A DNA stretch of 64,000 nt from Streptomyces collinus Tu 365 (lineage in GTDB: Bacteria > Actinomycetota > Actinomycetes > Streptomycetales > Streptomycetaceae). The translations under genes and the position numbers were made by a program. This document shows, piece after piece, positions 50,369 to 55,479 of this stretch. Position 1 is the stretch's first letter, and every line of letters begins with the position of its first letter. The notes below the pieces were generated by a model. It was not told the DNA's origin. It was given only the letters and a program-made list of their open reading frames with translations, and ran no database searches. The stretch covers positions 3,481,535 through 3,545,534 of the forward strand of contig NC_021985.1 of NCBI RefSeq assembly GCF_000444875.1, written 5' to 3'.

Positions 50369-51850
50369 TCAGACCCGGACCGGCTCGTCGGTGTCGTGCA
50401 GGCGGGTCGCCACCCAGACGCCCAGCAGGGCCACCACCGCCATCGGCAGGAAGACGGCGGCGAAGGCGGCGGGGTGGGAGCCGCCCGCCGTAGAGGTGTC
50501 GGTGCTGCCGCCGCCGAGGGCCGCGAAGGCGGCGCCGGTCGCGGCGAGCAGGATCACGTTGGAGAGGCCGTCGGCGATCTGCAGCGCCGCCGAGTTGGCG
50601 CCGGCCTCCTCGGGGGCGGACAGCTTCAGCAGGAGCACGCTGGCGGAGGAGATCACCAGGCCCATGCCGAAGCAGCCGAAGCCCCAGGCGACGGCGACGA
50701 TCCAGACGGGCACGCCGGAAAGGAGCACGCTCGGCGCGGTGGCGATCGCGACGACGACCAGCACCATGCCCAGGGCCATCAGCCGCTCCCGGTGCGGTTC
50801 GAGACGCGGCCGGGACTGCATCCAGGAGCCCAGCGCCCAGGTGACACCGCCCGCGGCGAGGGAGAAGCCGGCCATGGTGGGCGACAGCCCGCGCTGGGTG
50901 ACCAGCATCAGCGGGACGAAGGACTCGGCCGCGATGAAGGACCCGGCGGCGACCCCGCGCAGCAGCACGACGGAGGGCAGGCCGCGCGCGGCACGCCAGG
51001 TGCCGGGGGGCAGCAGGCCGAGGACGGCGGGCACGAGGAGGGCGGCACCGGCGAGACCGGGCAGCAGGGAGAGCCAGGTCAGGTCCTGGGCGGCGTACTG
51101 CAGCAGCCCGGCGCCGAGCGAGATCGCGAGGGCGAGCCGGATACGGCGCCGGTCCAGGGAGGCCGAGCCGTCGGCACCGGGCACGGGTCCGGCCGCCCTG
51201 CGCCGTATCTGGGGCAGCGCGAGCGCGAGCGGGAACACCACCAGGACGGGGATGCCGAGGAAGACCCAGCGCCAGCCGAGGTGCTCGGTGACGGCGCCCG
51301 AGGCGAGCGGTCCGACGATGGACGGGACGACCCAGCCGGCGGCGAAGGCCGCCATGATCGCGGGCCGCAGCCGCTCGGGGTAGGCACGTCCCACGACGAC
51401 GTACAGCGCGACGATGACCAGGCCGCCGCCGAGTCCCTGTACGGCGCGTCCCAGGATGAACACCCACATCACCTGGGCGGTCCCGGCGATCACCAGTCCC
51501 GCCGCGAAGGCCCCGATGCCGGTGGTCAGCGCGCCGAGCGGCCCGCGCCGGTCGGACCACTGCCCGGCGAGCACCATGCCGAACAGGCTGGTCGTGAAGT
51601 ATCCGGAGAAGGCGAACGCGTACAGCGCCACCCCGTCCAGTTCCCGGGCCGCGACGGGCATCGCGGTCCCGACGGCGGTCGCCTCGAAGGCGATCAGGAG
51701 CACCACGGACACGATCCCGATGCTCAGCGCCCGATGGGCCCGCCCCAGCACGCCGTCCTCGTTCTCGGCTTTCTCGGCGGGTGCGGCGGTCCCGCCGTTC
51801 TGGTCGACGACGTCCGCACCGGGGGCGTCGGGGGATTCGAGGGTGCTCAT
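50369..51850 (-). CDS. MFS transporter, DHA2-like drug efflux type
   Basis: 493 residues, about fourteen hydrophobic segments. Helix 1 is SIGIVSVVLLIAFEATAVGTAMPVAARELDG; the motif A region is AGQWSDRRGPLGAL, and motif C lies in AAGWVVPSIVGPLASGAV. This layout is typical of 14-helix proton-linked multidrug efflux pumps. Start ATG 51850. No linked regulator is seen. Substrate cannot be predicted. A cytoplasmic N-terminal 40 residues is acidic and disordered. It lies 200 bases upstream-side of tRNA-Cys, outside the island. Confidence 0.85.
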   Translation of the reverse strand: MSTLESPDAPGADVVDQNGGTAAPAEKAENEDGVLGRAHRALSIGIVSVVLLIAFEATAVGTAMPVAARELDGVALYAFAFSGYFTTSLFGMVLAGQWSDRRGPLGALTTGIGAFAAGLVIAGTAQVMWVFILGRAVQGLGGGLVIVALYVVVGRAYPERLRPAIMAAFAAGWVVPSIVGPLASGAVTEHLGWRWVFLGIPVLVVFPLALALPQIRRRAAGPVPGADGSASLDRRRIRLALAISLGAGLLQYAAQDLTWLSLLPGLAGAALLVPAVLGLLPPGTWRAARGLPSVVLLRGVAAGSFIAAESFVPLMLVTQRGLSPTMAGFSLAAGGVTWALGSWMQSRPRLEPHRERLMALGMVLVVVAIATAPSVLLSGVPVWIVAVAWGFGCFGMGLVISSASVLLLKLSAPEEAGANSAALQIADGLSNVILLAATGAAFAALGGGSTDTSTAGGSHPAAFAAVFLPMAVVALLGVWVATRLHDTDEPVRV

Positions 51851-52048
51851 GCGGGTCAGAGTAAGGTCCTCAACCGGTTTTGACCCCTGTCGGGAGCCCG
51901 GTCCGCTCTCCGACCTTGGTCGTACGACCCCGGTTCATGAACGGGGTGTGGCAGTCCCGTTGCGGCACCGGCCGTTCCCTTGAGCGGCCCTCGATCCCCG
52001 CCGTACGGTCGACGCACCGAGTTCGGCCCGCCCCCGGGCGACCGACCC

Positions 52049-52120
52049 GGCCGTGTGCCCGAGTGGTTCAGGGACTCGCCTGCAAAGCGAGTTACGCGGG
52101 TTCGATTCCCGCCACGGCCT
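52049..52120 (+). tRNA. tRNA-Cys (anticodon GCA)
   Basis: 72 bases. Acceptor GGCCGTG pairs with CACGGCC, followed by discriminator T as in bacterial tRNA-Cys. The anticodon arm CTCGC-CTGCAAA-GCGAG gives GCA; the T arm is GCGGG-TTCGATT-CCCGC. CCA is not encoded. The 3' half is duplicated 2.4 kb downstream, marking an integration site. Confidence 0.97.
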
Positions 52121-52122
52121 CC
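52079..52122 (+). repeat. Left attachment-like repeat (3' part of tRNA-Cys)
   Basis: 44 bases starting CCTGCAAAGCGAG and ending CCACGGCCTCC. They match 54497-54540 at 41 of 44 positions (differences at positions 8, 9 and 22). Confidence 0.8.
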
Positions 52123-52140
52123 ACCGGCCTGACCAGGCAG

Positions 52141-52181
52141 AGCAAGAGGGTGGCACCACGAAGGGGTGCCACCCTCTTGCT
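52141..52181 (+). terminator. tRNA-Cys terminator
   Basis: AGCAAGAGGGTGGCACC (52141-52157) pairs perfectly with 52165-52181 around ACGAAGG. A decayed copy with the same layout (AGAGGGCG ... GGGGTGCCGCCCTCT) recurs at about 54560-54592 after the second repeat. Confidence 0.9.
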
Positions 52182-52538
52182 CGTCCCGTCTCTGTTGGCG
52201 TTCAACCCGCCGCCGCCTCGGGGCGGTCACACGGTCAGGCGCAACGCGCGAGCACCGCTACACCGTTGACCATACGGAAACCCTTCTGTTCCGAGGCTGG
52301 CACAGATCCCGGAGATCGGCCCTTGCCTCGTGGTGATCGTTACTTTGCAGAACATATGGCCCCACGTAAAACTGTATCGAAATCCACCAATCACCTTAGC
52401 CGGCCTAGATGTTGCGATCATCCGCCCGAAGTCATAGGTTTGGGCCGTAGGTGCATGTTCAGCACGAAGCGACCACAGCCGTTGCTGTCATTACTCCCTC
52501 ATCACATGCGAAATTCACTTGGCGCAGGGAGAAAAACC
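52182..52538. other. AT-rich leader of the island gene, no gene seen
   Basis: No gene is supported. From about 52290 the base composition drops toward balanced GC/AT, including TTACTTTGCAGAACATATGG. It should contain the promoter of the gene at 52539 and perhaps remains of lost element genes. Confidence 0.5.
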
Positions 52539-53375
52539 ATGCCCGATTTCAACAATGACCCGGTCATCAGTCGCGATGGGGAACAAATCGCCGTAGAAGG
52601 ACACTCCAAGGGCACGGGCGTCCTTGGGGAAAGTTCAACCTGGTGGGGCGTCGTGGGCGCATCAAGCAGCGAGGAATCCGGCGGCGGGGTGCTTGGGGAA
52701 GCAACTGGACCCGGGGTTGCTGGCGTGAGCAAGACGTGGCACGGCATATACGGGGAGACGACCAGCACCACGGGCGGTGCCGCAGTGCACGGGCTAAGCA
52801 AGAGCTCCGCACCCGGTATCTACGGCAAGGGGGACGTCGCTGGGCTCTTCGAGGGCAAGGTGAATGTACATGGAGCACTGGACGTCTCATTGTTCATACA
52901 GACTCCCGCCATTAATGCGAAAGACGGAAGTTTCACAGGAGACGTGACCGCGCATGCATTTCACCACAGCGGCGCCGACTATGCCGAGACCTTCGGCTCC
53001 GAAAACGACGCCGAACCCGGCACTGTACTCGTAGTTCACGATGACGGCCTACTGGCACGCTGTTCCACGGAGTACGACACACGCGTTACCGGAGTTGTAT
53101 CGGGTGCAGGCGGGCTGTCGCCCGGCAGCGTCATGCACAGTCCGACCAACGCGGAACATCAAGCGACGGTGGCCCTAGCAGGGCAGGTTTATGTCAAGGC
53201 GGACGCCAGTTACGGAGCCATATCTGTAGGCGATTTGCTCACCACCTCGCCCACTGAAGGGTTCGCCATGCGAGTCGAGGACCCCTGCCGTGCAGTCGGC
53301 GCGATCATTGGCAAGGCGTTGTCGTCGATGAGCAGCGGAACAGGCCTCGTTCGGATGCTGGTATTGCCTTGCTGA
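52539..53375 (+). CDS. Gly-repeat, tail-fibre-like protein of unknown function
   Basis: 278 residues, start ATG 52539 with GGGAGAAA. The N-terminal half carries repeats of the type G(V/I)xG(E/A/V/S)S (TGVLGESSTWWGVVGASSS, GVLGEATGPGVAGVSKTWHGIYGET), a spacing of about 10-14 residues as in trimeric beta-helical fibres. The C-terminal half starts near GADYAETFGSENDAEPGTVLVVHDDG and contains DTRVTGVVSGAGGLSPGSVM, VALAGQVYVKADASYGAISVGDLLTTSP and AVGAIIGKALSSMSSGTGLVRMLV, a conserved tail found in bacterial and phage-like proteins of unknown role. AT-rich codon use marks it as acquired. Confidence 0.75.
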   Translation: MPDFNNDPVISRDGEQIAVEGHSKGTGVLGESSTWWGVVGASSSEESGGGVLGEATGPGVAGVSKTWHGIYGETTSTTGGAAVHGLSKSSAPGIYGKGDVAGLFEGKVNVHGALDVSLFIQTPAINAKDGSFTGDVTAHAFHHSGADYAETFGSENDAEPGTVLVVHDDGLLARCSTEYDTRVTGVVSGAGGLSPGSVMHSPTNAEHQATVALAGQVYVKADASYGAISVGDLLTTSPTEGFAMRVEDPCRAVGAIIGKALSSMSSGTGLVRMLVLPC

Positions 53376-53574
53376 GGTGTCTTTGCCTCTGCCCGCACGA
53401 GTCTTCTCCTCTGCCAAGAAGTCTCGACGGTGAGATGTTGGGCGATGATGGCGCAGGGCTCGCTCGAGGTGTCAGGGCCGGTCGATGGTTTCGGCGCTAT
53501 CCGGGACTTCTCCGCAGGTGTCCAGGGGCCACGCTGTCACGCAATGTACTCATGGACAGCCTGGCGGGGACGGA

Positions 53575-54248
53575 CGTTTTCGCGGCTATCTCGGGCTGCA
53601 CCTGGAAGCAACTCCCGCCAGGCTTTGGTCTGTCTGGGGTGACTGCCTTCCGTCGCTTCACCGAGTGGACCGAGGCCAGGGTCTGGGCCAGCTCCATCGC
53701 CTGACCCTGGACGAACTCGGAGCGCGGGGCGAGCTTGACTGGTCGCGGTGCGCGATCGACTCCGTAAGCGTGCGGGCCCTCATAGCTCATAGGGGGCAGC
53801 TGGCGGGACCGAATCCGACCGACCGCGGCATAAAGGGATCGAAAATCCACCTCATCGTCGACCGTCGCGGTCCACCCTTGGCGGTCGGCATCTCCGCCGC
53901 CAACCTGCACGACAACCAGGCCCTCATCCCACTGGTCCGCGGTATACCACCCATCCGTTCCCGTCGCGGCCCGCAACGCCGACGCCCCGGCAAGCTGAAC
54001 GGCGACACGGGCTACGCCGCTACCTGCGGCAATGGCTCGCCTCCCGCGGCGTCCAGCACCGTCTCGCCCGCAAGGGTGTCGAGTCGTCCCAATACCTGGG
54101 GCGCCACCGCTGGGTCGTGGAACGAACCGTGTCCTGGCTGTCCGGCCGCCGCCGCCTCCACCGCCGCTACGAGCGCAAGCCGGAACACTGCCTCGCCTTC
54201 ACTGCCATCGCCGCGACCCTCATACGCCATCGCCGGCTTACCAAGTGA
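53575..54248 (+). pseudogene. IS5-type transposase remnant with two frameshifts
   Basis: Three frames must be joined to read an IS5-family (IS1647-like) DDE transposase. The first (53582-53690) gives AAISGCTWKQLPPGFGLSGV and FRRFTEW. The second (to about 54013) gives LHRLTLDELGARGELDWSRC, AIDSVSVRAL, DRGIKGSKIHLIVDRRG, AVGISAANLHDNQALIPLV and RSRRGPQRRRPGKL. The third (54013-54248) gives RRYLRQWLASRGVQHRLARK, GRHRWVVERTVSWLSGRRRL and AFTAIAATLIRHRRLTK before TGA. Frameshifts lie near 53690 and 54013. The 5' end is unclear and no inverted repeats were identified. Confidence 0.85.
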
Positions 54249-54496
54249 AATGGCATCTAGGTCACAGGTCGCAGCGTTGATCAATCACACGGCCGCAGGT
54301 CAGCGAACCGGCCCTTCACTTCTTCGGCTACTGACTCCAGTGGACGAGTACTCGGCGTACCAACGCCCGACGGCCGAGGCTTCCGCCTCATTCAGCCGCG
54401 TCCGGAGCCGTTCACGGCGCTTCACGCGATGGGCGCGAACACGGGGGTGAACGGGGCCGAATGGCACCGAATGCCGCTCTGACCGGCAGAAACAAA
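54249..54496. other. Right end of the island, no gene seen
   Basis: No gene is supported between the IS remnant and the right repeat. The minus-strand frame at 54300-54503 has no recognisable family and is read across the repeat. Confidence 0.5.
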
Positions 54497-54540
54497 CCTG
54501 CAAGTCGAGTTACGCGGCTTCGATTCCCGCCACGGCCTCC
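54497..54540 (+). repeat. Right attachment-like repeat (degraded tRNA-Cys 3' copy)
   Basis: Matches 52079-52122 at 41 of 44 bases. The three changes destroy the anticodon stem (AGTCGAG) and the T stem (GCGGC/CCCGC), so it cannot act as a tRNA half. It is followed by a decayed copy of the tRNA-Cys terminator. Confidence 0.85.
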
Positions 54541-54632
54541 CGTGTGCGACCAGATGACAAGAGGGCGACATCCCGGAAGGGGTGCCGCCCTCTGGGTCGT
54601 CCGCCGGTCGGCGGCGGGCCGTAGGGCGGGTG

Positions 54633-55310
54633 TCACTCCGCCGTCGGCGACGGGTCGTGTGGGCGGGGCTGGTCGGGGTGGCCGGGCCGGCGGGGGCCCA
54701 GGGGGAGTACCGGGCGGCCGTGGGTGTCGTTGATGACCGTGGCCGCTGCCGCGTACCAGGCGACCAGGCCCGTGGCGATGCCGAACCAGCCGCCCACCTC
54801 CGTCACGGTGTGCGGCGGGAACCCCGTCTGGAAGGCGCCGATGGCCAGGAGGACGAAGGTGATCGTCAGCAGCACCAGCACGGCCAGGACGGCGAGGCTG
54901 ACGCGCAGCGCGGCGACGGCCATGAAGGCGGTGAAGATGCCCCACCCGAGCAGGAACAGCCCCAGCGTGTTGTGCGCGCCGCCGGCGACCTCCAGGCGCG
55001 GTGCGAGCCACCAGTAGGACAGCCAGAAGGCGCCGTACGAGGCGAAGGCCGTGGCGCCGAACGTGTTGCCGCGGCGGAACTCGAAGAGGCCGGCGATGAA
55101 CTGGGCCAGGCCGCCGTAGAACAGGGCGAGCGCCAGCACCGGGATGATCGCGGCGGTCTCCTGGAGCAGATTCGTGTTGATGATGGAGAGCAGCAGGGTG
55201 GTCAGGGCGAAACCCGCCAGGCCCAGCGGAGCGGGATCACCCGGGACCGTCGGGTGCAGCGCCGGTGAGTGTGGCTGCTCCGAGGGCAAACGCGTCGTCT
55301 CCTCGTTCAT
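54633..55310 (-). CDS. Acetate uptake transporter family protein (GPR1/FUN34/YaaH)
   Basis: 225 residues, six hydrophobic helices. The family signature is clear: DPAPLGLAGFALTTLLLSIINTNLL near the N-terminus (NPxPLGL-type), ALALFYGGLAQFIAGLFEFRRGNTFGATAFASYGAFWLSYWW and LLGWGIFTAFM. Members move acetate or succinate through the cytoplasmic membrane. The C-terminal 30 residues are Pro-rich and cytoplasmic. Start ATG 55310 has GAAGGG nine bases upstream; ATG 55319 is possible. It is just outside the right island border. Confidence 0.92.
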   Translation of the reverse strand: MNEETTRLPSEQPHSPALHPTVPGDPAPLGLAGFALTTLLLSIINTNLLQETAAIIPVLALALFYGGLAQFIAGLFEFRRGNTFGATAFASYGAFWLSYWWLAPRLEVAGGAHNTLGLFLLGWGIFTAFMAVAALRVSLAVLAVLVLLTITFVLLAIGAFQTGFPPHTVTEVGGWFGIATGLVAWYAAAATVINDTHGRPVLPLGPRRPGHPDQPRPHDPSPTAE

Positions 55311-55479
55311 GACCCGCATCCCTTCGACGAGAGGAGGGCGGGACCAGTCGGCCGACGCACGCCGTACACGGCTCGGCTGGCCGAAGTCCCGGGCAGCCGC
55401 GCTGCGCGGGACTTCTCCTGCGCTTATGTAGATTTGTACCCATTTACCCCGTCAGTAGGCCTCGCGCCGGGCGAGCGCG

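Follow-up and report, generated by a model that had tools for sequence, protein, structure and literature searches.

Why should an intact tRNA gene be followed, 2.4 kb downstream, by a second copy of its own 3' half and of what looks like its terminator? The question is raised by the only tRNA-Cys in a 64,000-nt stretch of the Streptomyces collinus Tu 365 chromosome (the whole stretch analysed here, hereafter the window, to which all positions refer), a tRNA-Cys (GCA) detected by ARAGORN at 52049-52123 on the forward strand. An earlier note had described a 44-base direct repeat with 41 identical bases, a second, decayed terminator and AT-richer DNA between the repeats, and had left two options: an element carrying the tRNA tail plus terminator, or a duplicated tRNA-Cys gene. 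A direct repeat search recovered the repeat at 52079-52122, within the tRNA tail, and at 54497-54540 on the same strand, with 41 of 44 bases identical and a spacing of 2418 nt. In a search of the own genome, the likeness extended past the tRNA through the terminator (52079-52186 against the far copy, 80%, E 5.8e-18), confirming that the copied segment reaches beyond the tRNA. The near hairpin is an 18-bp perfect inverted repeat (52140-52157/52165-52182) and is taken as a terminator from its shape. The folding z was -6.7 for the near and -4.5 for the far hairpin, each better than 200 of 200 shuffles, and the two copies scored 70 and 56, respectively, against a module consensus. The G+C content of 52187-54496 is 0.63, compared with 0.72 in the window.

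The sequences around the two tail copies have the order of an attachment site. After the tRNA, a TGACCAGGC motif and an element-type hairpin (52130-52182, forward strand), which align with the 34 element modules of set A1 described below, are followed at 52187-52208 by two worn arm-like sites, the first being CGTCTCTGTT (52187-52196) and the second, 12 nt further, a degenerate one (52199-52208). Compared with the CGTCTCAGTT pairs of the elements, the first arm has one mismatch and the second is badly worn; the motif and the hairpin are clear. At the far end, the displaced tail copy (attR, 54497-54540), whose anticodon-loop core is changed, adjoins a displaced terminator-like hairpin of the element module type without recognisable arm sites (54541-54602, forward strand), presumably the older one. 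Two features expected of an att scar of the tRNA-Cys integrase family were thus found, namely tail copies of which the displaced one starts at the anticodon arm, and a motif, a hairpin and two arms, though worn ones, 12 bp apart after the tRNA. From this layout, the 3' half of the window tRNA-Cys, from the anticodon arm onward, would be element-derived (attL), the side of the crossover being read from the displaced copies of relatives, which start at that arm.

To compare the site across relatives, the own genome and 60 relatives were searched with window 51850-52200, and the matching stretches (numbered L loci) were fetched. Paired att copies as in the window, 0.8 to 14.7 kb apart, were found in five genomes (L033, L036, L045, L049 and L053). 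Their displaced copies all start with AAACCTGCAAAGCGAG, which places the crossover within the anticodon arm or directly beside it; the same start occurs in L175 and L217, and a changed form in L261. L053, which is the same contig of Streptomyces cinnamoneus JCM 4633 as L095 and has the same two att copies as the window, encodes an integrase (PF00589), a Xis-like HTH_17 small protein, a Prim-Pol and an FtsK-type protein between them. Integrase pieces of its cluster persist in L045 and L034. At the empty sites L176-L179 and L192, the match of the downstream neighbour ends 92-306 nt after the tRNA start, and no second tail was found in stretches of 5.5-10 kb. The earlier note's preferred reading, a site-specific island that has lost its mobility, was supported as the best one, since the comparison it had proposed at tRNA-Cys across Streptomyces gave the predicted result: besides the full-length element (L053/L095), it revealed islands of 0.8-7 kb and empty sites. 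The att layout and the full and empty sites in relatives are thus direct outcomes of this comparison.

The flanks of the island are mostly shared. The MFS neighbour gene was matched in 28 of 32 stretches, one match being weak (30% identity), and the cluster of the downstream large dehydrogenase gene, which we take to encode xanthine dehydrogenase, is present in 28 of 32 stretches, window included. A GPR1/FUN34/YaaH transporter gene (54633-55319) separates the displaced att copy of the window from the next neighbour that is conserved. This gene was not found in the relatives' stretches (32 in one set, 20 in another), and a third att copy that might link it to the island was not found in the 14 kb searched.

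If the tRNA-Cys gene had been duplicated in tandem together with its terminator and the gap later filled by other DNA, two tails and two hairpins would also result. The fact that the copy includes the terminator agrees with such an origin, as do tRNA-Cys-like tandem copies beside the tRNA-Cys in 9 of 105 relatives' loci. However, the far copy in the window shares its start with those of the element carriers, at the anticodon arm and following AAAC; the tandem copies of the relatives differ in the anticodon region; and the truncated copy is common to the window and five relatives, with different ORFs between the repeats. We therefore consider duplication highly improbable. With that different region, these nine copies are not the uninterrupted tandem tRNA-Cys pair that the earlier note had named as the case that would overturn its reading. 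The tRNA-Cys-like copies lie upstream in L042, L045, L049, L209, L220, L234 and L250 and downstream in L037 and L182, and their anticodon region is longer and conserved (GCATCCATCAGCGAGCTCCGCTCGC). The Rfam tRNA model accepted the copy in L045 at 41 bits and did not accept the two in L037 at the gathering score; such a copy could be an unusual tRNA or a pseudogene.

We next looked at the integrase family of the full-length element. GTDB genomes were scanned with 400 residues of the L053 integrase, and the best 80 of 120 relatives were kept. Among these best 80 of 120 loci, 68 combine a tRNA (35 Cys, 32 Ser, 1 Thr), a hairpin and at least one CGTCTCAGTT-like arm, which lies 48-87 nt from the tRNA end. 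Two such arms 12 bp apart were found in 61 of the 68, and int and the tRNA are convergent in 67, the exception being L163. The 12 remaining loci include tRNA-Ser without a detected arm (L147, L154, L158), tRNAs without arms (L165) and arms without a detected tRNA (L102, L121, L153, L173). Integrase relatives of about 53-80% identity (various loci within L120-L172) lie beside tRNA-Ser with the same arm repeats, and one of 46% identity lies beside tRNA-Thr, again with the same arm repeats. By this comparison of sequences, the tRNA target appears to have changed within one integrase family.

The hairpin of these modules was then examined, with the Thr module left out of folding. Folding energies were -30 kcal/mol or lower in 66 of the 67 Cys and Ser modules, L095 being the exception. 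Two sets were used for covariation. A1 holds 34 Cys elements and the two window copies (36 rows), without L132, which has a longer hairpin; A2 holds 22 Ser elements, without ten of the 32 tRNA-Ser modules (L125, L138, L141, L148, L151, L152, L155, L156, L161 and L171). In A1, 91% of cells are paired and 10 of 16 stem pairs have changed on both sides; in A2, 86% are paired and 14 of 15 stem pairs have changed on both sides. These both-side counts were reached by 0 of 500 shuffles in either set, a result to be read as support and not as a probability, since the shuffles keep the relatedness of the rows. For the number of further pair types in A1, 30 of 500 shuffles did as well. When the partner was shifted by one column, pairing fell to 52-57%. 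Since the hairpin covaries, the terminator is probably part of attP. That the hairpin acts as a terminator we infer from its shape alone. The stem sequences differ between the Cys and Ser groups, as a terminator would allow, and the stems of the Cys group often start with A's and end with T's, a pattern that fits a terminator acting in both directions where tRNA and int converge.

How widespread the module is was assessed by a census of 107 tRNA-Cys loci (75 being better-scoring ones among 148 matches, 32 from earlier searches, so that the sample is not random), of which 105 have a detected tRNA-Cys (L064 and L230 were dropped). Some census genomes recur among the named loci, L053 and L095 being the same contig and L262 and L174 apparently one genome. 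By the census rule, which is imperfect and partly arm-based, 39 of the 105 loci carry a module, 3 a partial one and 63 none; L227, L232, L233 and L257, counted without a module, score 37-73, and L048, L180 and L255, counted with one, score only 18-24. Module-consensus scores had medians of 66 in the 39 module loci and 15 in the 66 others, the two groups overlapping at their margins; the decayed hairpin of L053 accounts for its score of 19. A strong hairpin within 75 nt was seen at 31 of 39 module sites versus 25 of 65 others. The stem pattern by itself is unspecific (60 of 105 loci), and CGTCTCAGTT-like arms were found in 21 of the 32 loci with motif plus stem and in 8 of the other 73. Eight of the 39 module loci have a displaced tail in the stretch (L033, L036, L045, L049, L053, L175, L217 and L261) and 31 have none in the fetched stretch, where long elements may be missed because the stretches span 4-19 kb. 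One of the 63 loci without a module, L214, yet has a displaced tail.

This distribution bears on whether the hairpin was brought in at all. The module hairpin might instead be the ancestral chromosomal tRNA-Cys terminator, copied by the elements, as could be suggested by the 39 of 105 loci that have the module, since in 31 of these no displaced tail was seen in the fetched stretch; a module-type hairpin also stands at the far end in the window and, among the nine relatives whose islands have a displaced tail, in five (L033, L036, L045, L049, L214). This explanation is unlikely in our view, because the same integrase family shows the same layout in tRNA-Ser with other stem sequences, because 63 of 105 loci lack the module, some of them carrying other hairpins, and because L175, L217 and L261 carry the hairpin module on the near (element) side only. 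The last observation, together with the hairpin being a regular att part in the element family, favours the first of the two options in the earlier note, a tail and terminator carried by the element, over a duplicated tRNA-Cys.

By the logic of integration, the near copy would come from the element and the far copy would be the displaced older 3' end of the chromosome. The far side is without a module in L053, L175, L217 and L261 (consensus scores 13-14); on the near side of L053 the hairpin is decayed and the motif and arms are present. Modules are found on both sides in L033, L036, L045, L049 and the window, and on the far side only in L214. We read the far-side modules in these five relatives and the window as earlier visits. 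The displaced copy in the window also belongs to the module type; another element therefore probably occupied the site earlier, which points to a history of at least two integrations.

An intact ORF and a broken transposase gene remain in the island. The ORF of 278 aa (52539-53375, forward strand; third-position G+C 0.67) has N-terminal G-V-x-G-type repeats and matched nothing in Pfam, PHROGs, NCBIfam or PADLOC. Its relatives occur in 11 plasmid records and, own genome included, in 7 of 199 genus genomes at E <= 1e-12, at other genomic places; no tRNA was found in the 16-kb stretches that contain the two nearest homologues (58% and 51%). Two plasmid neighbourhoods showed no consistent partner of known function, and no relative was found in phage records or viral contigs. 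A PDB sequence search gave one weak match, to a tailspike chaperone domain (E 0.11), partly over an apparent His tag, and a single-sequence fold was too poor for use (mean pLDDT 31). The G-V-x-G repeats and the tailspike-domain match allow no more than a weak guess, that the ORF may encode a fibre-like surface protein. Downstream, at about 53485-54250 on the same strand, lies an IS5-family transposase broken into three frames (PF01609; NF033580 at 58 bits, below the 110-bit cut-off), with no second match in the own genome; this decayed gene was absent from the earlier note.

Profile searches of two island ORFs gave no match to an integrase family, so that no integrase was seen beside the att site where a functional AICE would have a tyrosine (or serine) integrase gene, and none turned up among the tblastx and blastn matches listed between the relatives' integrases and the island, in agreement with the earlier claim that the integrase is gone. 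Nor was an FtsK-like Tra or a Rep gene, as expected of a functional AICE, found among the island ORFs scanned. Passages of PMC3218068 describe AICEs (pSAM2/SLP1-type) as integrating in the 3' end of a tRNA by means of a tyrosine integrase, with att repeats and int near one att, and give integrase, Xis-like, Prim-Pol and FtsK proteins as their usual set; the complete relative L053 shares this set, and the window copy has none of it.

With no recombination gene remaining in the window, the link to AICEs rests on the att layout and on about 116 nt of element end. This probable element end adjoins the displaced att copy on the attR side (54381-54496, tail excluded) and is 71% identical over 100 nt to the equivalent stretch of L045; none of 200 shuffles attained the score of 52. 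The corresponding scores were 28 for L049, 27 for L217 and 25 for L053, level with or slightly higher than the top score among 105 controls (26), and those for L033, L036, L175, L214 and L261 did not exceed that top score. With the tail included, blastn gave 71-78% over 100-172 nt to L045, L053, L163 and L168.

The same site also holds what is apparently another type of element. In L214, the displaced copy lies 9.7 kb from the tRNA and an AICE-type module stands at the far end of the apparently different element; L035 and L245 resemble L214 directly after the tRNA. The window island could likewise have been made by a different integrative element, its AICE att features being leftovers of earlier visitors. 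Such an origin gains from L214, where an AICE-type module has been pushed to the far end of an island at the same tRNA-Cys, from the tRNA-Cys site being a hot spot, from the ORF without an AICE link and from the clear match of the window's element end in one relative only. We nevertheless hold it to be quite improbable, though less so than duplication: unlike L214, the window has its module on the near side, with worn arms, and the sequence left of its far copy matches L045 (71% over 100 nt), whereas the sequence left of the L214 far copy does not match the window's element end.

Taken together, we put at roughly 85% the probability that the window feature is the relic of an AICE whose tyrosine integrase family recombines at the anticodon arm of tRNA-Cys. 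Among the points that count against the AICE reading are that, beside the clear match of the element end to L045, the displaced ends of five of nine relatives are no better than controls, and that the 278-aa ORF has no known link to the AICE family. Under the AICE reading, the attP of the family would be ordered as a tRNA 3' part, a strong hairpin (in all likelihood a terminator) and the arm-like repeats, with a putative function as integrase arms. On integration, the 3' half and hairpin supplied by the element would complete the tRNA, and the original chromosomal 3' half and terminator would come to lie at the opposite end of the island. With int and the tRNA running convergently, transcription from either side would stop at the hairpin, which may insulate the tRNA and the element from each other. 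In the order of events that we infer, the window element would then have lost its int, xis, rep and tra genes and taken up an IS5 copy, which decayed, while its arm and core sequences wore down. With the arm pair worn, the far core changed and no integrase found, it is expected not to move; excision has presumably been lost, and the element is probably fixed in place.

AICEs in tRNA ends, their accretion and their remnants are already known, as the parts drawn on here of PMC3218068, PMC4383910 and PMC9513070 describe. In a Streptomyces population, a tRNA-Arg accretion hot spot holds several AICEs and remnants in one tRNA site (PMC9513070, in part); it resembles the tRNA-Cys site here in having empty insertion sites in other strains, and differs in the tRNA used and in that the portion of the paper covered has no mention of a terminator. 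Islander islands with anticodon-centred att sites (type A), as set out in sections of PMC4383910, resemble the window in that a tRNA and a displaced fragment mark the island, with crossover at the anticodon; by the same sections, Islander requires an integrase gene, and therefore a relic such as that in the window would be filtered out. When ICEKp1 integrates, according to portions of PMC13023037, the tRNA's own terminator ends up on the distal side of the element, as in the AICE family here. However, the int of ICEKp1 is co-oriented with the tRNA and transcribed from its promoter, and the stem-loops of the int leader do no more than attenuate that transcription (PMC13023037, same portions), whereas in the AICE family int runs towards the tRNA and attP contains a strong hairpin downstream of the tRNA. 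The words "cys" and "terminator" have 0 occurrences in the text of PMC3218068. We found no paper in open-access PMC that treats a tRNA terminator as part of an AICE attP; the early tRNA-att literature, outside that scope, may mention terminators.

As a defective AICE relic, the window feature is of a known kind, and the portable tRNA-plus-terminator att module is the interesting part. The comparisons suggest that elements of this AICE family bring a tRNA end together with a fresh stop signal, and thus that an integrating element, in contrast to ICEKp1, can have a terminator built into its att site as a regular and covarying component. The signature of a tRNA end, a hairpin and a CGTCTCAGTT pair can find scars of gene-less elements that an integrase-based island finder misses. 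On balance, we favour, with moderate confidence, a model in which attP comprises a portable tRNA 3' half and a two-way terminator between core and arms, under selection that spares the tRNA and the convergent int. Repeated visits would then have overwritten the 3' half and terminator of tRNA-Cys in a large share of Streptomyces species, and many present-day tRNA-Cys terminators would be fossils of lost elements.
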